A DNA stretch of 64,000 nucleotides. It comes from Vicinamibacterales bacterium (GTDB taxonomy: Bacteria > Acidobacteriota > Vicinamibacteria > Vicinamibacterales > 2-12-FULL-66-21). Where the stretch lies: positions 1 to 64,000 of the forward strand of contig DASSPH010000107.1 in NCBI GenBank assembly GCA_035699745.1, in the 5' to 3' direction. Under the pieces are notes generated by a model. The model was not told the origin of the DNA and did not search any database. It saw only the letters and a list, made by a program, of their open reading frames with translations. The position numbers and the translations under genes were made by a program. Positions 2,533-56,398 of this stretch are shown here, one piece after another (within the stretch, counting starts at the first letter, position 1; each line of letters starts with the position of its first letter).

Positions 2533-4209
2533 GTGACGTCATGTCTTGCTGTCATGCTGCTGGTCGCGCAAGCCACGAGCTATCAGGCCGCGTCCCCGCC
2601 GCCGCGCGACGTCGTCACGCAGAAGGGCACCGCAACGGTCAAAGGGAAGGTCGTGACCGCCGACACCGGAAAGCCGCTCCGCCGCGTGCAGGTGTCGCTG
2701 TCCTCGCCTGACCTCACCGAATCCCGATCGATGAGCACGACCGCGCAGGGGCTGTTCGAATTCAAGGACCTGCCCGCGGGCCGGTACAACCTGACCGCGT
2801 CGCGCCCCGGTTTTCTTCAGGTGCAATACGGCCAGCGGCGGGTCGGCGAAGCGGGACGGCCGCTGCAGATTGCCGACGGGCAGCAGATCACCGATCTCAG
2901 TCTCGCCCTGCCGCGGACCGGATCGATCGCCGGCCGGATCACGGACGAGGTCGGCGAGCCGCTGGCGAACGTGAGCGTGTTTCCAGCCCACTGGCGCTAC
3001 TTCCGCGGCCGCAAGCGGCTGGTCCGCGCCCCGGGAGGCGCCAGCTTCAATCGCACCGACGAAACCGGCCAGTACCGGATCACCGGACTCGAACCCGGTG
3101 ACTACTTCGTGATGGCCACGACGCGGGACACGTGGACGGTCGACGAGAACCCGAAGGAGCGCATCGGGTTCAATACGACCTACGCCGCCGGTACGGCGAA
3201 CCCCGCCGATGCGCAGCCGGTCAAGGTCGTCTCCGGTCAGGAAGCGATCGCGCCCGACTTCGCGATGGTGCCCGGGCGCGTCGCCTCGATCTCCGGCACG
3301 GCCAGCGCGTCATCGGGGGCGCCGCTCGCGGGCGAGTCGGTCGAGGTCTCGCAGGAGTTCATGAGCCCTTCGGGCGGCTCGACGTTCGGCATGCCCGGCA
3401 CCAAGATCGGCGCGGATGGCAGCTTCACCATCAAGTCGCTGGCGCCCGGCGAGTATCGCCTCACCGTGCGCAGGCCGGGCGACAAGGAACGAGGCCTGGA
3501 AGGGGCCACCACGATCGTCGCGCTCAGCGGGGAGGACGTGTCCGGCGTGCTGCTCGTCACCGGAGCCGGCGGCACGATCTCGGGTCGAGTGGTCGCCGAC
3601 AGCGGGGCGCCGCTGCCCGCTCCGGATCAGCGGATGCGCGTCAATACGCGGCCGGTCGACGCCGCCACCACGTTCACCGCGTTCAATGCGGACAACGGGC
3701 GCGTCAAGGACGACTGGACGTTTGAAGTCAAGGACGTCATCGGCCGGCATTCGCTGTCGGTCACGTCGCTGCCGGCCGGGTGGGCCGTGCGATCGATCGA
3801 CTATTTCGGCAAGGACCTGGCGGACACCTCGATCGACGTGGCGAGCGGGCAGCACATCGAAGGTGTGACCATCGTGCTCTCGAAGACGCTGCCGACGATC
3901 GCCGGGACGCTGCTCGACCAGGCGAATCGCCCGGCCGACGGATCGGTGCTGATGTTTCCCGAGGACGCGGACAAGTGGGAGGAGAATTCGCGGTTGATCC
4001 GGACGGCACGTCCCGACGCGGCCGGCGTGTTCGAATTCCGCCACGTGGTCCCCGGGGAATATCTCGCGGTGCCGCTCGAGTACGTCCGGCCGGGCGACTG
4101 GTCGGATCCGGATTTTCTCCGCGGGCTGAAGGAACAGGCGACGCGGGTCCGCGTGGATGCGGCCGGCGTCACCGGATTGTCCCTGGTGCTGAAGCGCCCG
4201 CAGCACTGA
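2533..4209 (+). CDS. Secreted carboxypeptidase-regulatory-like repeat protein
   Basis: A 558-residue protein starting at GTG 2533, with AGGAGG at 2523-2528 and a signal-peptide-like N-terminus (MTSCLAVMLLVAQ). It contains several beta-sandwich modules of the carboxypeptidase regulatory-like type, each with the features GKV..D.G.P...V.V, F.F.DLPAGRY.L and G.ISGRV. Clear examples are at residues about 37-90 (KGKVVTADTGKPLRRVQVSL), 130-200, 255-320 and 340-400. Such proteins are abundant in acidobacteria and are usually surface or periplasmic; a structural or carbohydrate-binding role is inference. The downstream interval 4210-4397 contains the repeat element at the end of rho. Confidence 0.75.
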   Translation: MTSCLAVMLLVAQATSYQAASPPPRDVVTQKGTATVKGKVVTADTGKPLRRVQVSLSSPDLTESRSMSTTAQGLFEFKDLPAGRYNLTASRPGFLQVQYGQRRVGEAGRPLQIADGQQITDLSLALPRTGSIAGRITDEVGEPLANVSVFPAHWRYFRGRKRLVRAPGGASFNRTDETGQYRITGLEPGDYFVMATTRDTWTVDENPKERIGFNTTYAAGTANPADAQPVKVVSGQEAIAPDFAMVPGRVASISGTASASSGAPLAGESVEVSQEFMSPSGGSTFGMPGTKIGADGSFTIKSLAPGEYRLTVRRPGDKERGLEGATTIVALSGEDVSGVLLVTGAGGTISGRVVADSGAPLPAPDQRMRVNTRPVDAATTFTAFNADNGRVKDDWTFEVKDVIGRHSLSVTSLPAGWAVRSIDYFGKDLADTSIDVASGQHIEGVTIVLSKTLPTIAGTLLDQANRPADGSVLMFPEDADKWEENSRLIRTARPDAAGVFEFRHVVPGEYLAVPLEYVRPGDWSDPDFLRGLKEQATRVRVDAAGVTGLSLVLKRPQH

Positions 4210-45935: not shown

Positions 45936-46736
45936 TCAGTGGCCGCGGTCCAGGGTATCGCGCCAGCGGCAGGCGGACGTGAACACCTCTTCGACGGCGG
46001 TGCCGGTATCGAGCGTATCGCGCATCTCCGTCAGCGTGCCGATCAGCACGTCGAGCGCGGCGCGCAGCACGTCCGGGTTGGTCATCGTGATGTCCCTCCA
46101 CAGCGCCGGCGAGCTGCCGGCGAGCCGCGTGGTGTCGTGGAGCCCGCGGCCGGCGATCTCGAGGCCCGCGTCCCCCGCCAGCTTGCCGACGACGTGCATC
46201 AGGGCGCTCGCGGTCAGCTGCGGCAGGTGGCTGACGGCGCCGACGAAGCGGTCGTGCAGCTCGGGGGTCATGATGTGGGGGACGCCGCCGAGGCCGCCGA
46301 CGAAGGCCTCGAGCCGCTGCAGCTCCGCCGTGTGGTTCGGGCCGGGCGTGAGAATCCACGGACGGCCTTCGAACAGATCAGCGCGGGCGTGGGCGGCGCC
46401 GCTGCGGACGTCGCCGGCCATGGGATGGCCGCCGATGAAGGTCAACGACGGGAACGCATCCGCCGCCGCGGCGATCAGCCGCTTGGTGCTGCAGACGTCC
46501 GTGACCACGGCGCCCGGGGACAGATGCGGCGGCAGCGCGGTCAGCGCCTCGATGCTCGCCAGCACCGGCGCGGCCAGGACGACGAGATCGGCGCCGGTGA
46601 TCCGCGACAGCGAATCCCCTTTGTCGAGCGCGACGATCGCGATCCGCGGCCATCGCTTCGCCGCCGCGCGGGCCACGGACGCGCCAACCAGCCCGAACCC
46701 GACGACGGCGACGCGCCCGAACGGACCGTCAATCAC
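45936..46736 (-). CDS. tyrA: Prephenate dehydrogenase
   Basis: A 266-residue enzyme for the Tyr branch (prephenate to 4-hydroxyphenylpyruvate). The N-terminal NAD-binding motif VAVVGFGLVGASVARAA is followed by VTDVCSTKRLIAAAA, FIGGHPMAGDVRSGAAHARADLFEGRPW and HDRFVGAVSHLPQLTASAL, the family blocks with the catalytic His in SHLPQ. It is a monofunctional form without an ACT domain. It is the last gene of the aromatic supraoperon. Confidence 0.9.
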   Translation of the reverse strand: MIDGPFGRVAVVGFGLVGASVARAAAKRWPRIAIVALDKGDSLSRITGADLVVLAAPVLASIEALTALPPHLSPGAVVTDVCSTKRLIAAAADAFPSLTFIGGHPMAGDVRSGAAHARADLFEGRPWILTPGPNHTAELQRLEAFVGGLGGVPHIMTPELHDRFVGAVSHLPQLTASALMHVVGKLAGDAGLEIAGRGLHDTTRLAGSSPALWRDITMTNPDVLRAALDVLIGTLTEMRDTLDTGTAVEEVFTSACRWRDTLDRGH

Positions 46737-46737
46737 T

Positions 46738-46760
46738 CAGCACCGCGCACTGCGCACTCA
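46738..46760. repeat. Short GCACCGCGCACTGCGCAC repeat in the tyrA-aroF gap
   Basis: CAGCACCGCGCACTGCGCAC is a copy of the array around 36650-36719. It fills the 21-bp spacer between aroF and tyrA. Confidence 0.6.
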
Positions 46761-47807
46761 CACCCCCCATCCGCGCCGCGCCACCGGCTCGAGGCAGATG
46801 CTGCGGCCGATCGCCGGCGCGATGATGCGCAGCTCCGCCATCAGGCGATCGAACTGGGCCGGGAACATCGACTGCGCGCCGTCGCTCAGCGCGTGATCGG
46901 GGTCGCAGTGGACCTCGATGATCAGCCCGTCGGCGCCGGCCGCGACCGCCGCCCGCGCCATCGGCGCCACCTTGTCGCGCTTGCCAGTCCCGTGGCTCGG
47001 GTCCACGATGATCGGCAGGTGGCTCAGCTTCTGCACCACCGGGATCGCCGAGATGTCCAGCGTGTTGCGGGTGTAGCTCTCGAACGTGCGGATGCCGCGC
47101 TCGCAGAGCATCACGTTCATGTTGCCGCCGGCGAGGATGTATTCCGCCGAGAGCAGCCACTCCTCGATCGTCGCCGAGATGCCGCGCTTCAGCATCACCG
47201 GCTTCTTCGAATGCCCCAGCTCGCGCAGCAGCGTGAAATTCTGCATGTTGCGCGCGCCGACCTGGAGGATGTCGGCATACCGCTCGATCAGTTCGAGCTG
47301 GCTGATGTCCATGACCTCGGTGATCAGCTTGAGGTTGTGACGATCGGCGGCCGACTTGAGCAGCCGCAGCCCTTCCTCCCCGAGCCCCTGGAAGCTGTAG
47401 GGACTGCTCCGCGGCTTGAACGCGCCCCCGCGAAGCACCTTCGCCCCCGCCCGCTTCACCGCCGCGGCGCTCGCCTCGACCTGCTCTTCGCTCTCGGCGG
47501 AGCACGGCCCCGCCATGACGACCACTTCGTCCCCGCCGATCCGCAGATCGTCGATGACGATCACGGTGTTGTCGGGCTTGAAGGCGCGGCTCGCGAGCTT
47601 GTACGGCTCGGTGATGCGATGCACCTCCTGCACGCCTTCCAGCACCTCGAGCAGCGCGGTGTCGAACTGACGCGACCCGCCCACCGCGCCGAGCACGGTG
47701 CGCAGCGCTCCCGTCGAGCGGTGCACGTCGAACCCCATCTCTATCAGCTTGGCGATCACACCCTGCACCTGGGCATCGGTCGCCCGCTCCCGCATGACTA
47801 CCACCAT
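46758..47807 (-). CDS. aroF: DAHP synthase (3-deoxy-7-phosphoheptulonate synthase), I-beta type
   Basis: A 349-residue first enzyme of the shikimate pathway. An N-terminal ferredoxin/ACT-like domain ([28 protein letters not shown]) precedes the TIM barrel with [59 protein letters not shown] and [15 protein letters not shown]. The N-terminal domain gives Tyr/Phe feedback control in Thermotoga-type enzymes, so enzyme-level inhibition probably complements attenuation. Confidence 0.93.
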
Positions 47808-47811
47808 ATGC

Positions 47812-48105
47812 CTAGCCTTTTTCCTTGGATTGTATTTCGTCCGCGATCCGTTCCAGGTGCCGCGCCTCGTCGATGATCCGTTCGAACAGCCGCTTGATCG
47901 CTTCCTGATCCAGCGGCCCGTGATTGACCGCCTGGACGTTGCGCAGCACCTCGCTCTCCCGCTCCGGCTGGTAGATCGGCACCCCCATCTCGCGTTTCAC
48001 CCGTCCGATCTCCAGCGCGCACGCCGCCCGTGCGTTCAGCAGCCGGACGAGCGACTCGTCCAGCAGGTCGATCCGCTTGCGCAGATCGTCAATCTCCGGC
48101 TTCAT
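47812..48105 (-). CDS. aroQ: Chorismate mutase (AroQ class)
   Basis: A 97-residue all-helical chorismate mutase. [38 protein letters not shown] holds the expected Arg/Arg/Lys active-site pattern, and [13 protein letters not shown] the Glu/Arg pair. It is a stand-alone enzyme, not fused to DAHP synthase or PheA. The ATG overlaps the trpA stop by 4 bp. Confidence 0.9.
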
Positions 48106-48893
48106 GCCTGCCCTTTCAGCCAGCGCACGTACTCTCCGGCCTTTGCCGCCACCGACGCGGACGCGCCGTGCCGCGCGATGACGTCGACCAGCGCGCTCCC
48201 GACGACCGCGGCATCCGCCCACTGCCCGACCTGCGCGACCTGCTCCGGGGTCGAGATGCCGAAGCCGAGCGCCAGCGGCAGCGGCGAGTGCGCGCGGATG
48301 CGGCGCACCAGCGGCTCGGCGTCCGCCGCGAGCCGATCGCGCACGCCCGTCACGCCCAGCCGCGAAATGACATAGAGGAAGCCGGCCCCCATCGCCGCCG
48401 ACGCCTTGATCCGCGCCTCGGCGGTCGTCGGGCTCAGCAGGAAGATCGGATCGATCCCGGCGCCGACCAGGCGATCGCGGAACGGGCCCGCCTCTTCGAC
48501 CGGCAGATCCAGCATCAGCACGCCGTCGACCCCCGCGGTCCCGGCGGCGTCGACGAACGCCTCCTCGCCCATCCGCAGGACCGGATTCGCGTAGGTGAAG
48601 AGGACGATCGGCGCCTCGATGCGCCGCCGATGCTGGCCAATCATCAGCAGCGTGCGCTTCAGCGTGGTGCCGCTCGCCAGCGCGCGCTCCGACGCCCGCT
48701 GGATCACCGGGCCGTCGGCCAGCGGATCCGAGAACGGGACGCCGACTTCGAGCACGTTCGCGCCGTTGTCGGCGATCGCGACGAGAATCTCGGCGGTTCG
48801 CGCCAGGTCCGGATCTCCGGCGGTGACATAGGCCACCAGACCAGGGCCGCCGTTGTCGCGGAGGCGCTCGAACGCTGCCGCAATGGTGGACAT
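48102..48893 (-). CDS. trpA: Tryptophan synthase alpha subunit
   Basis: A 263-residue TIM-barrel lyase that releases indole from indole-glycerol phosphate. The catalytic Glu lies in ANVLEVGVPFSDPLADGPVIQ and Asp in VDGVLMLDLPVEE; GFLYVISRLGVTG and LGFGISTPEQV are the phosphate-binding loops. It overlaps trpB by 1 nt and aroQ by 4 nt. Confidence 0.95.
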   Translation of the reverse strand: MSTIAAAFERLRDNGGPGLVAYVTAGDPDLARTAEILVAIADNGANVLEVGVPFSDPLADGPVIQRASERALASGTTLKRTLLMIGQHRRRIEAPIVLFTYANPVLRMGEEAFVDAAGTAGVDGVLMLDLPVEEAGPFRDRLVGAGIDPIFLLSPTTAEARIKASAAMGAGFLYVISRLGVTGVRDRLAADAEPLVRRIRAHSPLPLALGFGISTPEQVAQVGQWADAAVVGSALVDVIARHGASASVAAKAGEYVRWLKGQA

Positions 48894-50128
48894 CAGCGCC
48901 CGCCCTCCAGCACCTTCTGCACGCTGAGCACGTCCTTGTCGCCGCGGCCGGAGAGGTTCACCAGCAGCACGGCGTCGCGCGGCAGTTCGGGCGCGAGCCG
49001 GCAGGCGTGCGCGATCGCGTGCGACGATTCCAGCGCCGGCAGGATCCCCTCTTCCCGTCCGAGCCGCTGGAACGCCGCGAGCGCATCGGCATCGTCCACC
49101 CAGGTGTATTCGGCGCGCCCCTGGTCGCGCAGCCACGCGTGCTCCGGGCCGACGGACGCATAGTCCAGCCCCGCCGAAATCGAATGCGTCAGCTCGACGT
49201 TGCCGTCGGCGTCCTGGAGCACGAAGCTGCGCGTGCCCTGCAGCACCCCGGCGGCGCCGCCGGCGAACCGTGCGGCATGCTGGCCGGGCGCGATCCCGCG
49301 GCCGCCGGCCTCGACGCCGACGAGCCGGACGCCCGGGTCGGGAATGAACGCGTCGAAGATGCCCATCGCGTTGCTGCCGCCGCCCACGCAGGCGACGATC
49401 GCGTCGGGAAGCCGGCCGAGCTGATCGAGGCACTGCGCGCGCGCCTCGCGCCCGATGATCGATTGGAACTCGCGCACCATCAGCGGATAGGGATGGGGAC
49501 CGAGCACCGAGCCCAGCAGGTAATAGGTGCCGGTCACGTTGGTGACCCAGTCGCGCATCGCCTCGTTGATCGCGTCCTTCAGCGTCCGCGATCCCGCGTT
49601 CACCTCGATCACCTCGGCCCCCAGCAGCCGCATCCGGAACACGTTGAGCGACTGCCGCGCCATGTCCTCCGATCCCATGTAGACGTGGCACTCGAGGCCC
49701 AGCAGGGCGCAGACCGTCGCCGTCGCGACGCCGTGCTGCCCCGCACCGGTTTCGGCGACGATGCGGCGCTTGCCCATGCGCTGCGCGAGCAGCGCCTGTC
49801 CGAGGGCGTTGTTGATCTTGTGCGCGCCGGTGTGCGCCAGATCCTCGCGCTTGAGGACGATGCGCGCGCCGCCGGCGGACTCGGTGAGCCGCCGGGCTTC
49901 GTAGAGCGGGGTCGGGCGGCCGACGTAGTCGCGCAGCAGCCGTCCCAGCTCGTCGCGGAACGCGCCGTCCTCGCGCACCTTGAAATACGCCTCGGTCAGC
50001 TCTTCGATCGGCGCGACCAGCGTCTCCGGCACGAACCGTCCCCCGTACGGCCCGTAATAGCCGCGCGCATCGGGATCGCGGCGGCCGAAGATCGGGCCGC
50101 CGTGCTGTCCGAGAAGCCCCTGCGTCAC
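48893..50128 (-). CDS. trpB: Tryptophan synthase beta subunit
   Basis: A 411-residue PLP enzyme (indole + serine to tryptophan). The GTG 50128 overlaps the trpF TGA and gives [37 protein letters not shown]. The PLP lysine lies in [22 protein letters not shown] and the phosphate loop in [13 protein letters not shown]. It is a standard TrpB1 form and the partner of trpA. Confidence 0.95.
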
Positions 50129-50754
50129 CGTTTCAGCTCCGGCCGCTGGCTCATCGTGGCGAAGAGCATCAGCATCTTCTGAATATCCTTCCTGCCCGGC
50201 GCCTCCTCGACGCCGGACGAGACGTCGATCGCCCACGGCCGCACCATCGCGAGCGCGTCGTTCACGTTCTCCGGCGTCAGTCCGCCGGACAGGATCGTGA
50301 GCCGGCGGCGCGCGATTTCCCGCGCGATGCTCCAGTCGATCGCGGCGCCGGTTCCGCCGCGCTTGATCGGATCGTGCGCGTCCAGCAGCACGGTCACCGA
50401 CTCGGGCAGCGCCAGCGCGGCATCGATGGCGGACGCATCCTTCACCGGGACCGCCTTGATCACGCGCACGCCGGCGCGGACGCAGTCGTCGGGGGATTCG
50501 TCGCCGTGAAACTGCACCGCCGAGAGCTGCAGCTCCGCGGCGAGCCGCTTCGCCTCGGCCACCTGATTCACGAACACGCCGATGACGCTGACCAGCGCCG
50601 GGACGACGGCGAGAATCTCCCGCGCCCGCGCCGCATCGACGGCACGCGGACTCGACGGCCAGAACACCAGGCCGAGGGCCGACGCGCCGCAGGACACGGC
50701 CGCGAGCGCATCCTGCGGAGTGGTGATGCCGCAGATCTTGACCGGCGGGATCAC
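50125..50754 (-). CDS. trpF: Phosphoribosylanthranilate isomerase
   Basis: A 209-residue TIM barrel. [33 protein letters not shown] carries the catalytic Cys and [15 protein letters not shown] the catalytic Asp; [14 protein letters not shown] and [16 protein letters not shown] are the phosphate loops. The GTG 50754 overlaps the trpC stop by 4 bp (GTGA). Confidence 0.94.
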
Positions 50755-51560
50755 GGCTTCCCCCGAAGGGCGCGCAGCGCCGCGCCCGGATCCGGTTCCG
50801 CGATCAGGCGCTCGCCGACAAGGAACGCGTGGTATCCGGCGCGTGTCAGGCGTGTGATATCCGCCGCATCGCGCAACCCGCTCTCTGCCACCGCCGTCAC
50901 GTGCGCGGGCAGGCGGAAGGCGAGCGCCTCGTGCAGTTCCGGCTGGACCGCCAGCGTGCGCAGGTTGCGGCTGTTCACGCCGATCACCTCCGCGCCCGCC
51001 TCGCTCGCCATCTCGAGCTCGGCCCGATCGTGGATCTCGACGAGCGCCGCCAGCCCCCATTCAGCCGCGTCGGCGAGCCGCTCGCGCAGCGCCGCCGGCG
51101 AAAGCGCCCCGGCGATCAGCAGGATCGCGTCCGCGCCGTACGCCGCCGCCTCGGTCACTTGATACCGCTCGACGATGAAGTCCTTGCGCAGCAACGGAGC
51201 GCTCACCACCTGCCGGATCGCGGCGAGGTGGTCGAGCGAACCGTCGAAGAACGTCGGCTCGGTCAGCACCGAGATTGCCGCGGCGCCGCCGCCGACGTAG
51301 GCGACGGCATGCTCCTCCGGACGGTAGTCCGCGCGCAGGATCCCGCGCGACGGTGAGCGCCGCTTGCACTCGGCGATCACACGGGGCGCGTGGCTGTCGC
51401 GCAGCGCTCGCACGAACCTGGCCCCGTTGGGACGGCGTCGCGACGCGTATGCGGCGAGCGTCGCCTCGGGCGTCGCCGCCCGCCGCACCTCGGTCATCCG
51501 CCGTGCGGCGGCGACGATGGTGGCGAGCAGATCCGGCGCGGCGGTCGCGGTCTGCGTCAC
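50751..51560 (-). CDS. trpC: Indole-3-glycerol phosphate synthase
   Basis: A 269-residue TIM barrel, monofunctional (not fused to TrpF). [15 protein letters not shown] holds the catalytic Glu/Lys, followed by [42 protein letters not shown] and VAESGLRD. The GTG 51560 overlaps the trpD stop. Confidence 0.95.
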
Positions 51561-52588
51561 GCCCCGCCTCCCTGCGGCTCGTTCGACACCGCGATCAGCC
51601 GTTCGAGCGCCGCGGCGGCGCGGCCGCTGTCGATCGCCTCCGCCGCGACCGCCAGTCCCTCGGGAATGGTCGCCGCCCTGCCGGCAATGAGCAGCGAGGC
51701 GGCGGCGTTCAGCAACACGATGTCGCGCGGCGCACCGCGCCGGCCGGACAGCACCGCACGCGCGATCGCGGCGTTGTCCCGCGCATCGCCGCCGCGCAGC
51801 TCCGCCGCCGGCGACTTCGAGAGGCCCACGTCCGCCGGATGCAGATAGAACGTGTTGACCGCGCCGTCGCGGCATTCCGACACCTTCGTGTACCCCGTCG
51901 TCGAGATCTCGTCCAGCCCGTCGGCGCCGTGCACGACCCACGCCCGTTCGGCGCCGAGCAGCGCCAGCGAGCGCGCCACCAGCTCGGTCAGCTCCGGCCG
52001 CGGCACCCCGACCAGCTGCCGCGACGCGCCGGCAGGATTGGTCAGCGGGCCAAGGAGGTTGAACGCCGTCCGCACGCCCAGTTCCTTGCGGGTCGGCGCC
52101 GCGTGCCGCATCGACGGATGGAACACCTGCGCGAAGAAGAAGGCAATGCCCGCCTCCTCCAGGCAGCGCTCGACGACGGGTGCGGGGGCGGCGACGTTGA
52201 CGCCGAGCTCTTCGAACAGGTCGGCGCTGCCGCAGCGGCTCGAGGCGCTGCGGTTGCCGTGCTTGGCGATGCGCACGCCGCAGGCCGCGAGCACCAGCGC
52301 CGCGACGGTCGAAACGTTGAACGTGTGCGCGCCGTCGCCGCCGGTGCCGCAGGTGTCGAACACCGGCGCGTAGGTGCGGCTCAGTTTCGTGGCGCGCGCC
52401 CTCATCGTCCGCGCCAGGCCCACGATTTCGTCCGGCCGCTCCCCTTTCATCGCCAGGCCGACCAGGAACCCGGCGATCTGCGACGGCTGCGCCCGCCCGT
52501 CCATGATCGTTTCCATGGCGGCGGCCGCCTCGTCCGCCGACAGGTCGACGCGGCGCTGCAGCTTGTCGATGAGCGCGGGGAACGTCAT
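51557..52588 (-). CDS. trpD: Anthranilate phosphoribosyltransferase
   Basis: A 343-residue enzyme that joins anthranilate and PRPP. The signature is FDTCGTGGDGAHTFNVSTVAALVLAACGVRIAKHGNRSASSRCGSADLFEELG. It overlaps trpG by 4 bp. Confidence 0.95.
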   Translation of the reverse strand: MTFPALIDKLQRRVDLSADEAAAAMETIMDGRAQPSQIAGFLVGLAMKGERPDEIVGLARTMRARATKLSRTYAPVFDTCGTGGDGAHTFNVSTVAALVLAACGVRIAKHGNRSASSRCGSADLFEELGVNVAAPAPVVERCLEEAGIAFFFAQVFHPSMRHAAPTRKELGVRTAFNLLGPLTNPAGASRQLVGVPRPELTELVARSLALLGAERAWVVHGADGLDEISTTGYTKVSECRDGAVNTFYLHPADVGLSKSPAAELRGGDARDNAAIARAVLSGRRGAPRDIVLLNAAASLLIAGRAATIPEGLAVAAEAIDSGRAAAALERLIAVSNEPQGGGA

Positions 52589-53154
52589 CCCCGCGTCTCC
52601 AGGAAGTTGCGGAGGATCTTCCGTCCTTCGCCGGTGAGCACCGATTCAGGGTGGAACTGCACGCCGTGCACCGGCCACTCGCGGTGGCGCAGCCCCATGA
52701 TGATCCCGTCGTCCGTCCGTGCCGAAATCTGCAGGACCGGCGGCGGCGGATCGGCGACGATGAGCGAATGGTAGCGCCCGGCGACGAACGGCTGCGAGAC
52801 GCCGGCGAAGACGCCGGTGCCGTCGTGCTGCACCGACGAGACCTTGCCGTGCATGAGCACCGGCGCGCGGATCACCTCGCCGCCGAAGGCATAGCCGATT
52901 CCCTGATGCCCCAGGCAGACGCCGAGCACCGGCACGCGGCTGCCGAGCACGCGGATGACCTCGACGCTGATGCCGGCGTCCTCGGGACGGCCGGGACCGG
53001 GCGAGATGACGATGCGGTCCGGCTGCATCGCTTCGACCTCGCCGAGCGAGATCTGGTTGTTGCGGCGCACGTCCGGCGCATGCCCGAACTCGCCGAGGTA
53101 CTGGGCGAGGTTATAGGTGAACGAATCGTAATTATCCAGGAGCAGGACCTTCAC
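52585..53154 (-). CDS. trpG: Anthranilate synthase glutamine amidotransferase subunit
   Basis: A 189-residue class I amidotransferase. VLLLDNYDSFTYNLAQYLGE leads to IVISPGPGRPEDAG and the nucleophile Cys in VPVLGVCLGHQGIGYAFGG, with His/Glu in GVQFHPESVLTGEG. It may also serve folate synthesis as PabA. It overlaps trpE by 4 bp. Confidence 0.95.
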   Translation of the reverse strand: MKVLLLDNYDSFTYNLAQYLGEFGHAPDVRRNNQISLGEVEAMQPDRIVISPGPGRPEDAGISVEVIRVLGSRVPVLGVCLGHQGIGYAFGGEVIRAPVLMHGKVSSVQHDGTGVFAGVSQPFVAGRYHSLIVADPPPPVLQISARTDDGIIMGLRHREWPVHGVQFHPESVLTGEGRKILRNFLETRG

Positions 53155-54662
53155 AGCTCGGTCTCCGCCATCTCGATGGCCTGCAGCAGCGCGCGCGCCT
53201 TGTCGCACGTCTCTTCGTATTCCGCCGCAGGGTTCGAGTCGGCGACGATGCCGGCGCCGGCCTGCACGCGGGCGACGCCGTCGCGCAGGCTGATCGTGCG
53301 GATGGCGATGCAGAAGTCCAGGTTGCCGGCGAAGTCGATGTAGCCGACCGCTCCCGCGTAGAGATCGCGGCGGGTCGGCTCGAGCTCCGAGAGGATCTCC
53401 ATCGCGCGGATTTTCGGCGCGCCCGACACCGTTCCCGCCGGGAAGCACGACACGAGGGCGTCGAGGTGGTCGCGGTCGTCCGAGAGCCGCCCTTCGACCG
53501 TCGACACCAGGTGCATGACGTGCGAGTAGCGCTCGAGCCCCATGTACTGCGGCACCTTGACGGTGCCGAACTCGCAGACGCGGCCGAGATCGTTGCGGCC
53601 GAGATCGACGAGCATCACGTGCTCGGCGCGCTCCTTCTCGTTGCGCTTCAGTTCGTCGGCGAGCCGGAGGTCTTCTTCTTCGTTGCGGCCGCGCGGACGG
53701 GTTCCGGCGATCGGATGCGTTTCGACATGCTGCCCTTCCACCCGCACCAGCATCTCCGGCGAGGATCCGACGATGGCGGACTTGCCCATGCGGATGAAAT
53801 ACATGTAAGGGGACGGGTTGACGTGGCGGAGCGCGCGGTAGACCGTCAGCGGTTCGGCTTCGACTCTGGCTTCGAAGCGGTGCGACAGCACCGCCTGGTA
53901 GATGTCTCCCGCGGCGATGCGTTCCTTGATGGCGCGCACGCCCGCCTCATAGGTTTCGCGCGTCTGGTTCGACGCCACTGCCGGCGCCTTGCGGCGCCCC
54001 GGCTCGGAATGCGAGAGACCTCGCTCGAGCTCCCGCTCGAGGAACTGGATCTTGGCGCAGGCGAACTGATACAGCGCGGCGAGATCCTCGTCGGCGGTGA
54101 CGCGGGCGTTGGCAATGATCAGGATGCGGTGCTTGACGTGATCGAAGGCCAGCACCGTATCGAACAGCATGAACCCGGCATCGTCGGCCTGATCGTTCCC
54201 GTCGCGTGGAGCGGCGGAGCTCGTGCGCCAGGCCGCGCGATCCCATGCCGAGGCGAGCGCCGGCTCGAACGTCACCGACGCGTCGTAGCCGATGAAGCCG
54301 ACGGCGCCGCCGGTGAACCGCGGCAGCCCTTGCACGAAGGGCGCGCGGAACTCGGCCATCAGGCGGCGCAGCACCGGCACGAACGGCTCGTCCGATTCGG
54401 TCGTCACGCCGGAGCGATCGACGATCGTCCGTCCGCCGCGCGCGCGCAGCACGAGGAACGGGTCCTTGCCGAGGAACGAGTAGCGCGCGACCTGCTCCCC
54501 GCCTTCCACGCTCTCGAACAGGAACGCGTAGTCGGAGTGCTCGGCAATCTTCAGGAAGGCGGACACCGGCGTCAGCAGATCCGCCATGATCTCCTTGACC
54601 ACCGGCACGAACGTGCCGCGCCGCGCCAGCTCTTTGAACTCGTCGAACGTCGTCTGTTTCAT
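53151..54662 (-). CDS. trpE: Anthranilate synthase component I
   Basis: A 503-residue chorismate-utilising enzyme. An N-terminal regulatory region (FVPVVKEIMADLLTPVSAFLKIAEHSDYAFLFESVEGGEQVARYSFLG, with the Trp-feedback LLTPVSAF-type motif) precedes the catalytic domain with IKERIAAGDIYQAVLSHRF, RNPSPYMYFIRMG-like VNPSPYMYFIRMG, HPIAGTRPRG and CFPAGTVSGAPKIRAMEI. The ATG 54662 is used; the upstream 67-bp gap to aroDE is filled by microrepeat. Confidence 0.95.
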   Translation of the reverse strand: MKQTTFDEFKELARRGTFVPVVKEIMADLLTPVSAFLKIAEHSDYAFLFESVEGGEQVARYSFLGKDPFLVLRARGGRTIVDRSGVTTESDEPFVPVLRRLMAEFRAPFVQGLPRFTGGAVGFIGYDASVTFEPALASAWDRAAWRTSSAAPRDGNDQADDAGFMLFDTVLAFDHVKHRILIIANARVTADEDLAALYQFACAKIQFLERELERGLSHSEPGRRKAPAVASNQTRETYEAGVRAIKERIAAGDIYQAVLSHRFEARVEAEPLTVYRALRHVNPSPYMYFIRMGKSAIVGSSPEMLVRVEGQHVETHPIAGTRPRGRNEEEDLRLADELKRNEKERAEHVMLVDLGRNDLGRVCEFGTVKVPQYMGLERYSHVMHLVSTVEGRLSDDRDHLDALVSCFPAGTVSGAPKIRAMEILSELEPTRRDLYAGAVGYIDFAGNLDFCIAIRTISLRDGVARVQAGAGIVADSNPAAEYEETCDKARALLQAIEMAETEL

Positions 54663-54686: not shown

Positions 54687-54733
54687 CCACGGATTACACG
54701 GATTACACGGACCACACCGAGCACACGGATCAT
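54687..54733. repeat. CACGGATTA microrepeat in the aroDE-trpE gap
   Basis: CACGGATTACACGGATTACA continues as CGGACCACACCGAGCACACGGAT, a degenerate ACACGG repeat filling the only sizeable gap within the trp part of the operon. It makes no obvious hairpin or terminator. Confidence 0.7.
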
Positions 54734-56178
54734 GTCGAGCGCGCCTTGATTGCGCTCGCCACGGCATCCTCGAACAGGCCCGCGGGCGGGCGCTGGCCGG
54801 TCCAGATTTCGAACTGCCGTTCGGCCTGCGCGACGAGCATGGCGAGGCCGCCGATCACGGTGCAGCCGCCCGCGGCCGCGGCGGCCATCAACTCCGTCGG
54901 ATCGGGGTCGTACACGAGGTCGTAGACCAGCGTGCCGTCGAACGGACCGGTGTACGGCGTACCGGGGACGCCGCGGCTGCCGACCGGCGTCGCGTTGACG
55001 AGCACGTCCCACGAGCCGGACGGCGGGGGCCAATCCAAGGACGCGGCGCCGATCGCACCGGCCACCGTGGCGGCGGCCTCGGGACGCCGTGCGGCGATCG
55101 CGACGGAGGCGCCTTCCCGACGGAGCGCGAGGCCGACGCCGCGCGCCGCGCCGCCGGCGCCGAGGATCACCGTCCGCAGTCCGCGCAGCGTCGGGACGCG
55201 CGCGCGCAGCGGCTCCAGGAAGCCGTCGGCGTCGGTGTTGCTCCCGACCCACTTCGCCTGGCCGGGCCGCGCCGCACCGCCGTCGCGCACGGCGATCGTG
55301 TTCACTGCCCCGGCGGCGGCCGCGGCGGGCGCGACGTCGTCGAGCAGCGGCATCACGTCCCGTTTGTAGGGAATGGTCACGCTCGCGCCGCGCAGCCCGA
55401 TCGCACCGCCGAATTCGCGGAGCCCCTCGAGATCGCGGGTGTCGAGCGGCACGTACGCGGCGTTGAGACCCAGCGCGGCGAATCCGGCGTTGTGCATCGC
55501 CGGCGACAGCGATCCCGTCACCGGGCGGCCGATGACCATGTAGACCGCGGCGTCGCGCCGGATCCGGCGGAAGCGGAACTCGTGCTGCAGCCGGGCGGCG
55601 GTAATCTGCCCCGGCGCGATCGCCGGACCGGCGTAGGTCCAGCGCGAGCCGAAACGGTCGGCGAGCACACGCGTCGCCAGTCCCGCCGCGCCCATCCCGA
55701 TCACGATCGACGAGCCGTCGCCGTTGGCCGCGTCCAGCAGGGCGTGAAGCTCTGACGGCCGTTCGGTGGTGACGGCAAGCTTCGCGATCTCGCCGCCTTT
55801 GCCGCGCAGTCGCGCCAGGATTCCGCGGACGTCGTGCGGCGTGCCGGAGAAGTCGTGGCGCGACACGATCACGCCGCGGCCGCCGCGCGCCCGAATCAGG
55901 GGATCGACGTCGGCATCCCACTCGACGTCGATGAACTCGGCGCCAAGCTCGTGCGCCCGGTGCAGGATTCCGAGCCGCTCGTCCTCGCTGCCGTCGAACA
56001 TGCCGCCCTCGCGCAGCGGACGGCAGGTCACGATCGCCGGCTTGATCCGTCCCGCGAGGGCGGCGTCCGGATCCGGCCGGAGCATCGCGTCGAGGCGCAG
56101 CTCCACCAGATCGGCGTCCGGCTCGGCAGCCTGACGCGCCGCCCGGATGGCGGCGGCATCCCTTCCCACGACGGTCAC
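54730..56178 (-). CDS. aroDE: Bifunctional 3-dehydroquinate dehydratase / shikimate dehydrogenase
   Basis: About 482 residues, a fusion of type I DHQ dehydratase (residues about 1-210: DLVELRLDAM, PAIVTCRPLREGGMF, FIDVEWDADVDPLI, VIVSRHDFSGTP with the catalytic His and EIAKLAVTTERPSE with the Schiff-base Lys) and shikimate dehydrogenase (residues about 215-480: VIGRPVTGSLSPAMHNAGFAALG, SVTIPYKRDVMPLLDD with catalytic Lys, NTDADGFLEPL, and VILGAGGAARGVGLAL). It covers two successive shikimate steps. The start is uncertain: AGGAGG lies at 56198-56203 but no ATG follows; GTG 56178, ATT 56184 or TTG 56220 (inside the U tract of the attenuator) are candidates. It is the first structural gene after the attenuator. 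Confidence 0.92.
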   Translation of the reverse strand: MTVVGRDAAAIRAARQAAEPDADLVELRLDAMLRPDPDAALAGRIKPAIVTCRPLREGGMFDGSEDERLGILHRAHELGAEFIDVEWDADVDPLIRARGGRGVIVSRHDFSGTPHDVRGILARLRGKGGEIAKLAVTTERPSELHALLDAANGDGSSIVIGMGAAGLATRVLADRFGSRWTYAGPAIAPGQITAARLQHEFRFRRIRRDAAVYMVIGRPVTGSLSPAMHNAGFAALGLNAAYVPLDTRDLEGLREFGGAIGLRGASVTIPYKRDVMPLLDDVAPAAAAAGAVNTIAVRDGGAARPGQAKWVGSNTDADGFLEPLRARVPTLRGLRTVILGAGGAARGVGLALRREGASVAIAARRPEAAATVAGAIGAASLDWPPPSGSWDVLVNATPVGSRGVPGTPYTGPFDGTLVYDLVYDPDPTELMAAAAAGGCTVIGGLAMLVAQAERQFEIWTGQRPPAGLFEDAVASAIKARST

Positions 56179-56218
56179 GCAAATCTGAGCCGTAGATCCT
56201 CCTGAACCCGCAGACCCC

Positions 56219-56259
56219 AAAAAGAAAAGCCCCCTCAATCGCGATGACTGAGGGGGCTT
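56219..56259 (-). terminator. Attenuator terminator of the aromatic supraoperon
   Basis: On the reverse strand an 11-bp perfect stem AAGCCCCCTCA/TGAGGGGGCTT (arms 56259-56249 and 56237-56227, 11-nt loop) is followed by TTTTCTTTTT. This is a textbook intrinsic terminator placed between the leader peptide ORF and aroDE. Confidence 0.9.
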
Positions 56260-56306
56260 CCGGAACTCGGTGCGTTTCGAACGCGCGCTAGCGCTTCCCC
56301 CTCGTC
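56246..56306 (-). promoter_or_regulatory. Candidate antiterminator pairing
   Basis: GAGGGGG within the leader ORF (56303-56297) is complementary to CCCCCTC in the 5' arm of the terminator (56256-56250). The pairing extends by GAC (56306-56304) with GTC (56248-56246) across one bulged A. It competes with the terminator stem. The G-rich segment begins 14 nt after the last Trp codon, so a ribosome stalled at the Trp codons would leave it free while one at the leader stop codon would mask it. Confidence 0.75.
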
Positions 56307-56380
56307 GCGTGGGCGTACCACCACCAATACGACGTAAACGTCGTCCGGCCGGCGGCGAGGAGCGCGTTATTGGTCAGCAC
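56288..56380 (-). CDS. trpL: Leader peptide of the aromatic/trp operon (attenuation)
   Basis: A 30-codon ORF, GTG 56380 to TAG 56288. An in-frame TAG at 56393-56395 prevents an earlier start. Its C-terminal half reads TFTSYWWWYAHATRGKR: Phe at codon 15, Tyr at 18, three consecutive TGG Trp codons at 19-21, Tyr at 22. Tandem Trp codons followed by an antiterminator and terminator are diagnostic of ribosome-mediated attenuation, known for trp in enterobacteria, rhizobia and Streptomyces. The flanking Phe and Tyr codons may let it sense the other aromatic products of this operon. A short hairpin (ACGACG/CGTCGT) precedes the Trp codons. Translation may be leaderless or use a weak site. Confidence 0.88.
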   Translation of the reverse strand: MLTNNALLAAGRTTFTSYWWWYAHATRGKR

Positions 56381-56389
56381 GCTGCGGAG

Positions 56390-56398
56390 AGCCTAACA
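56390..56398 (-). promoter_or_regulatory. Weak extended -10 candidate for the trpL-aroDE operon
   Basis: Reverse strand TG-T-TAGGCT (56398-56390) ends 9 nt before the trpL GTG. No good -35 is present. It is proposed because the region between the divergent genes is only about 80 bp long and this is the best -10 on that strand. Confidence 0.3.

Follow-up and report, generated by a model that had tools for sequence, protein, structure and literature searches.

A probable trp-type attenuator with tryptophan and tyrosine codons before an aromatic amino acid operon of the Vicinamibacterales (Acidobacteriota)

The trp leader of E. coli, trpL, combines a short leader peptide containing tandem Trp codons with mutually exclusive 2:3 and 3:4 hairpins and a U-tract terminator, and each of these elements has a counterpart at the locus described here. 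Enterobacterial attenuators can be multivalent, as are thrL (Thr, Ile) and ilvL (Ile, Val, Leu). The trp attenuators of Corynebacterium and Streptomyces have two or three UGG codons, with a terminator and an antiterminator before the trp genes (PMC1262725). In Sinorhizobium meliloti trpL is leaderless, its transcript starting at the ATG, and encodes the 14-aa peptide peTrpL before trpE(G); trans roles have been demonstrated for both the RNA and the peptide (PMC7298713).

The present locus belongs to a Vicinamibacterales bacterium (GTDB Acidobacteriota; Vicinamibacteria; Vicinamibacterales; 2-12-FULL-66-21; assembly GCA_035699745.1). The window, i.e. the whole 64-kb stretch that was analysed, comprises positions 1-64,000 of the forward strand of DASSPH010000107.1, and the attenuator and its operon lie on the minus strand. 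In all likelihood a ribosome-mediated, trp-type transcription attenuator controls this aromatic operon, with Trp and probably also Tyr as the signal. The locus combines an ORF with control codons, an intrinsic terminator, an antiterminator predicted to exclude that terminator when the ribosome stalls, and a predicted block of the antiterminator on completion of the leader. Sequence evidence could hardly make the attenuator reading more secure; a stalling response to starvation, and read-through in vivo, are what we infer from it.

The leader ORF and the aromatic operon

The leader ORF (56288..56380; all features of the window below are on the minus strand) has 30 codons, running from a GTG start at 56380 to a TAG stop at 56290-56288 and ending in TFTSYWWWYAHATRGKR before the stop. 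The peptide, M L T N N A L L A A G R T T F T S Y W W W Y A H A T R G K R, is encoded in its first half by GTG CTG ACC AAT AAC GCG CTC CTC GCC GCC GGC CGG ACG ACG TTT and in its second half by ACG TCG TAT TGG TGG TGG TAC GCC CAC GCG ACG AGG GGG AAG CGC TAG. Its three Trp codons begin at 56326, 56323 and 56320, the third ending at 56318, and form the core of a putative control-codon block, TAT TGG TGG TGG TAC (Tyr-Trp-Trp-Trp-Tyr; 56315..56329), which is read from the sequence and agrees with the enrichment of both residues in 85 relatives. A putative -10 element, TAGGCT (56390..56395), agrees in position with the motif TGnTAnnnT of many relatives, where TTGAC(A) lies upstream of it; the -35 of the window leader is weak. 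Because the start codon follows only 9 nt after the putative -10, the leader mRNA is probably leaderless or nearly so, with its predicted 5' end at ~56384-56381. In many families the likely leader start lies ~9-13 nt after the -10; in family f9 the gap is often longer. The gene upstream of the leader is divergent.

The first operon gene is aroDE (54730..56187), a fused type I 3-dehydroquinate dehydratase and shikimate dehydrogenase recognised by Pfam (DHquinase_I, Shikimate_dh_N, SDH_C) and NCBIfam. Its start is uncertain: at 56205-56178 there is an AGGAGG, and no ATG, GTG or TTG where close relatives have ATG (AGGAGGATCTACGGCTCAGATTTGCGTG). The tryptophan genes follow, namely trpE for anthranilate synthase component I (53151..54662; NCBIfam TIGR00564), trpG for component II (52585..53148; TIGR00566) and trpD for anthranilate phosphoribosyltransferase (51557..52588; TIGR01245), all above cut-off; trpC for indole-3-glycerol phosphate synthase (50763..51524, the 3' end approximate); trpF for phosphoribosylanthranilate isomerase (50125..50766; NCBIfam NF002298 above cut-off); and the tryptophan synthase genes trpB for the beta chain (48893..50128; Pfam PALP and operon position) and trpA for the alpha chain (48102..48899; Pfam Trp_syntA). 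Next come a 97-aa AroQ-type chorismate mutase (47812..48105), named from its sequence and found by tblastn in the same place in most relatives, a DAHP synthase (46758..47807; Pfam DAHP_synth_1 plus a ferredoxin-like domain) and, as the last gene of the aromatic operon, tyrA for prephenate dehydrogenase (45936..46736; Pfam PDH_N, PDH_C). Whether the gap from trpA to the DAHP synthase gene holds a second leader was also considered; it is occupied by the chorismate mutase gene instead, and the idea was rejected.

Gene order, strand and spacing suggest that aroDE-trpEGDCFBA-chorismate mutase-DAHP synthase-tyrA are co-transcribed. Twenty operons from 10 families share the order aroDE-trpEGDCFBA, and tyrA follows in 19/19 of those that no contig end interrupts; operons of family f11 are without chorismate mutase and DAHP synthase, yet retain tyrA. 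The pheA gene is located elsewhere in the window's genome (G000:C13), and no Phe leader is seen in the 300 nt read before it.

Relatives were collected from aroDE matches in the family, order and class, and the stretches upstream of these genes were compared. In ~85 sampled genomes of the order, from at least 12 families, aroDE is preceded by leader, Trp run, antiterminator strand (segment 2), terminator and U tract, in the shared order promoter motif, short ORF, Trp-rich run, segment 2, stop, segment 3, segment 4 and T run. A covariance model of the leader finds one strong match per genome, at the aroDE locus, in 30/30 sampled genomes of the order, the window's own genome (E value 4e-15) among them. 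Three families (f16, f18, f19) have aroDE without trp neighbours in the stretches read, and no Trp leader before aroDE. Some records titled Bifidobacterium breve or Acidimicrobiia (L151, L162, L193, L194) carry acidobacterial aroDE and look mislabelled.

Tyrosine among the control codons

The earlier note had named the Trp codons as the control codons, which stands, and had overlooked the Tyr codons as well as their explanation, the operon. Trp is indeed the most frequent and most clustered residue in the relatives' leaders, and a few leaders from other parts of the phylum also have the motif WWWY; both points would suit a plain Trp-only attenuator, in which the Tyr codons serve the RNA or its translation, for instance by way of a leader hairpin or ribosome spacing. 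We regard this as possible but rather unlikely, since Tyr is present in 83/85 leaders, with both of its codons and in varied settings, is rare in the Trp leaders of another class, and is accompanied by no conserved leader hairpin.

The distribution of Tyr was assessed in the 85 leaders over a segment running from two codons before the first Trp to segment 2. Here Tyr accounts for 107/632 non-Trp codons, against 19/~1,630 in the rest of the leaders (Fisher p = 4e-43), and the 83 leaders have at least one Tyr codon among their Trp codons. TAT is used 68 times and TAC 39 times, with few or none in the other frames, and the settings include WWYW, WRWYW, WYWYW, WWWFFYF and WWYYxF. The exception is family f5, whose three leaders lie outside the 85 and have Tyr three codons before the Trp run or not at all. 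Phe is mildly enriched overall in the same segment (p = 0.01) and is dense in families f15 and f9. The f15 leaders (L205-L207) are very Phe-rich, with WWWFFYF and WFWFLYF; a pheA gene in the operon was considered as the explanation and rejected, pheA not being found in the operon stretch fetched.

Another acidobacterial class provides the contrast. Ten trpE-headed operons there carry Trp leaders of the same kind (L308-L316, L325), and Tyr is found in the corresponding segment of 2/10, against 83/85 (p = 2e-8), a comparison that may reflect few independent events, shared ancestry limiting both counts that link tyrA to Tyr codons. No tyrA was detected by tblastn, which a divergent TyrA could escape, in the seven of these operons that were read with long flanks, and DAHP synthase is present in six of the seven.

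The control codons thus appear to track the output of the operon. A dual Trp and Tyr signal fits the conserved control codons for both operon products, and with the tyrosine branch (tyrA) encoded in the operon as well, Tyr is likely to be a second signal.

The antiterminator, the terminator and the predicted switch

Segment 2, the candidate antiterminator strand GACGAGGGGG (56297..56306), lies inside the leader coding sequence and can pair with 56256-56246, a pairing marked by covariation in 85 sequences. Its partner, segment 3 (AAGCCCCCTCAGTC; 56246..56259), doubles as the 5' arm of the terminator, as covariation and folding indicate; segment 4 (GATTGAGGGGGCTT; 56227..56240) is the 3' arm and covaries with segment 3, the hairpin having a predicted energy of -27.9 kcal/mol. 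The terminator comprises a 14-15 bp stem, the 5-nt loop ATCGC and the U tract TTCTTTTT (56219..56226), read from the sequence and conserved as a T run in the alignment, and precedes the first structural gene.

The geometry proposed in the earlier note is exact on the minus strand. GAGGGGG (56303-56297) can pair with CCCCCTC (56256-56250) of the 5' arm of the terminator, and the helix extends by three pairs over one bulge, GAC (56306-56304) with GTC (56248-56246) around a bulged A at 56249; 14 nt (56317-56304) separate the third Trp codon from GAGGGGG, and 6 nt (56296-56291) lie between GAGGGGG and the leader stop. The further claim that this spacing is exactly one ribosome footprint agrees with the window and fails as a rule: the distance from Trp to segment 2 is 9-27 nt in nearly all relatives, and a fixed 14-nt spacing was accordingly rejected. 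Segment 2 of E. coli trpL likewise starts ~14-15 nt after the last Trp codon, as read from its sequence (L203). GAGGGGG arises in 0.4% of 20,000 dinucleotide shuffles of the leader plus spacer, the 10-mer GACGAGGGGG in 0.005%, and GAGGGGG is not over-represented across the 64-kb window (9 found vs 11 expected).

Stronger than these shuffle odds, in our view, is the comparative evidence for segment 2. The consensus of the relatives is CTGAAGAGGC for segment 2 and GCCTCTTCAG for segment 3; in the alignment 81% of the cells of helix 2:3 are paired, 9 of its pairs have changes on both sides, and its covariation score is 0.227, against at most 0.104 in slid controls. The terminator helix 3:4 is paired in 94.6% of cells and scores 0.304, against at most 0.136 when slid, and RNAalifold recovers it unaided. 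Covariation in homologues, whose absence would by the earlier note have counted against the switch, is hence found in both helices. Because the shuffle control keeps shared ancestry, the weight rests on the slid control and on the fact that two mutually exclusive helices agree. Moreover, segment 2 is read in different frames, as ...ATRGKR in the window and ...TEGAxR in most relatives, and its conservation across frames therefore points to selection on RNA pairing and not on the peptide sequence.

These data bear on two further explanations, both very improbable. According to one, the locus is only a constitutive intrinsic terminator, and both the short ORF and segment 2 are fortuitous. The strength and conservation of the terminator would fit this, but segment 2 covaries with segment 3, the Trp runs are in frame, a promoter motif lies upstream on the same strand, the arrangement stands directly before the Trp operon in ~85 genomes, and the upstream neighbour is divergent, so the terminator is not that gene's. 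According to the other, the leader is Trp-responsive in a different way, as a T-box, a riboswitch or a site for a TRAP-like protein. It would give the same output, a terminator before the trp operon, but an Rfam scan of the window gives no match at gathering score, Trp_leader (RF00513) and T-box included, a scan of the leader region at E up to 10 gives nothing relevant and again neither of these two, and the open frame with its Trp codons and its enclosed segment 2 suggests that the sensor is a ribosome.

Ribosome-mediated attenuation would proceed as follows. RNA polymerase makes the leader, and a ribosome would begin translation almost at the 5' end. When charged tRNA-Trp, and probably also charged tRNA-Tyr, is short, the ribosome would stall in the Tyr-Trp-Trp-Trp-Tyr block and leave segment 2 free; on emergence of segment 3 the two would pair, no terminator would form and the operon would be transcribed. 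When the amino acids are plentiful, the ribosome would reach the stop codon and cover segment 2, the 3:4 pairing would form, and transcription would end before aroDE.

Predicted folding agrees with both halves of this switch. If the ribosome is placed on any one of the three Trp codons before segment 4 has been transcribed, the minimum free energy structure of the stretch is the 2:3 pairing (-26.6 kcal/mol), in line with the earlier proposal that stalling at Trp exposes segment 2; if it is placed at the stop codon instead, it covers segment 2 and leaves 3:4 as the sole pairing, as had been proposed for completion of the leader. Among the 85 leaders the mean pair probability of 2:3 exceeds 0.5 in 84 with a stall at the first Trp and in all 85 with a stall at the last, and that of 3:4 exceeds 0.5 in 85/85 with the ribosome at the stop. 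As isolated helices, the 2:3 duplex has -19.6 kcal/mol against the -27.9 kcal/mol of 3:4, and the finished RNA favours the terminator. The comparison of the two pairings that the earlier note had called for thus favours 2:3 co-transcriptionally under a Trp stall and 3:4 at equilibrium, and switching must therefore happen during transcription, as in the classical model.

In the minimum free energy structure of the window's naked full-length leader, the terminator is accompanied by a large hairpin of the 1:2 type. As long as segment 4 is missing, segment 2 is predicted to pair with upstream leader RNA in 22/85 leaders, the window's not among them, and a universal 1:2 protector hairpin therefore finds no support; with segment 2 hidden in so few leaders, control without translation is less clear. 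Taken together, the leader, the covarying exclusive pairings, the predicted folding switch and the matching operon support the classic attenuation switch read in the earlier note.

Composite operons and comparison with known attenuators

A sister family of the same class (f17; L225-L228, L234-L248) has his genes between aroDE and trpE, in the order aroDE-hisZ-hisG-hisD-hisC-hisB-hisH-hisA (or F)-hisIE-trpEGDCFBA-chorismate mutase-DAHP synthase, in which the single-gene names of the his cassette rest on Pfam hits and order; tyrA lies ~2.5 kb beyond the operon in L256. The single leader before aroDE carries His, Trp, Phe and Tyr codons, examples of its ends before the stop being VRRWRPVFRHHRYHP, IERWRPTFHHHRHYD, VRRWRTVFHYHWHP and VFPWRGMFHSHYRHP, and its antiterminator is a different one, GGTTCCCTGG against CAGGGAAC. 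In the window's genome the his genes form an operon of their own, preceded by a His-leader attenuator that is built in the same way (L259, G000:C27:5700-11500, reverse strand ~3090-3240). Its leader ends in MFRLAHHHRHHHTCFGGPVELRH before the stop, the start codon lies 7 nt after a -10, and CCCGCCGA, part of the terminator AGCCCCGCCGATTCATGTCGGCGGGGCTTTTTG, has a potential pairing partner in TCGGCGGG.

The covariance model also has matches in other classes with aromatic-rich short ORFs (L291, L293, L294, L297, L298, L300). ASWWWYRR stands before trpB-like and DAHP-synthase-like genes, and CCWFWFWSL and GWWWYATTTGEA precede genes without assigned identity; several of the other-class matches (E 1e-4 to 1e-2) may be generic terminators.

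On balance, the leader peptides of Acidobacteriota seem to act as multi-amino-acid sensors whose codons follow the genes that composite operons contain: mostly Trp before the trp operons of one class, Trp and Tyr before the aro-trp-tyrA operons of Vicinamibacterales, and His, Trp, Phe and Tyr where his genes lie within the operon. This natural series, in which leader codons change with operon content, makes it testable how several amino-acid signals are integrated by one stalling leader, and how operon fusion shapes the evolution of leaders.

The mechanism itself is known, textbook trp-type attenuation; it is its setting in Acidobacteriota and the mixture of Trp and Tyr that we did not find described, our literature search, with most subscription journals outside its reach, having returned no acidobacterial trp leader and no Trp-plus-Tyr leader. 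Compared with the E. coli trp operon, the present one starts with aroDE and ends with tyrA, and its leader has Tyr codons. Unlike in trpL, segment 2 is part of the coding sequence of the leader and precedes its stop, the start codon is almost at the predicted 5' end, Rfam gives no match, and the segment 1 protector is not generally conserved. The attenuators of Corynebacterium and Streptomyces share the mechanism, likewise outside the Proteobacteria, and differ in belonging to another phylum, in their conserved complementary triple gGCC-rGCy-GGCC and in having been reported for trp genes alone (PMC1262725). Sinorhizobium meliloti trpL offers a likeness in its leaderless start, which here is suggested by the position of the promoter. 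With thrL and ilvL, finally, the locus shares the use of one leader carrying control codons for more than one amino acid, those leaders serving the threonine and branched-chain pathways.
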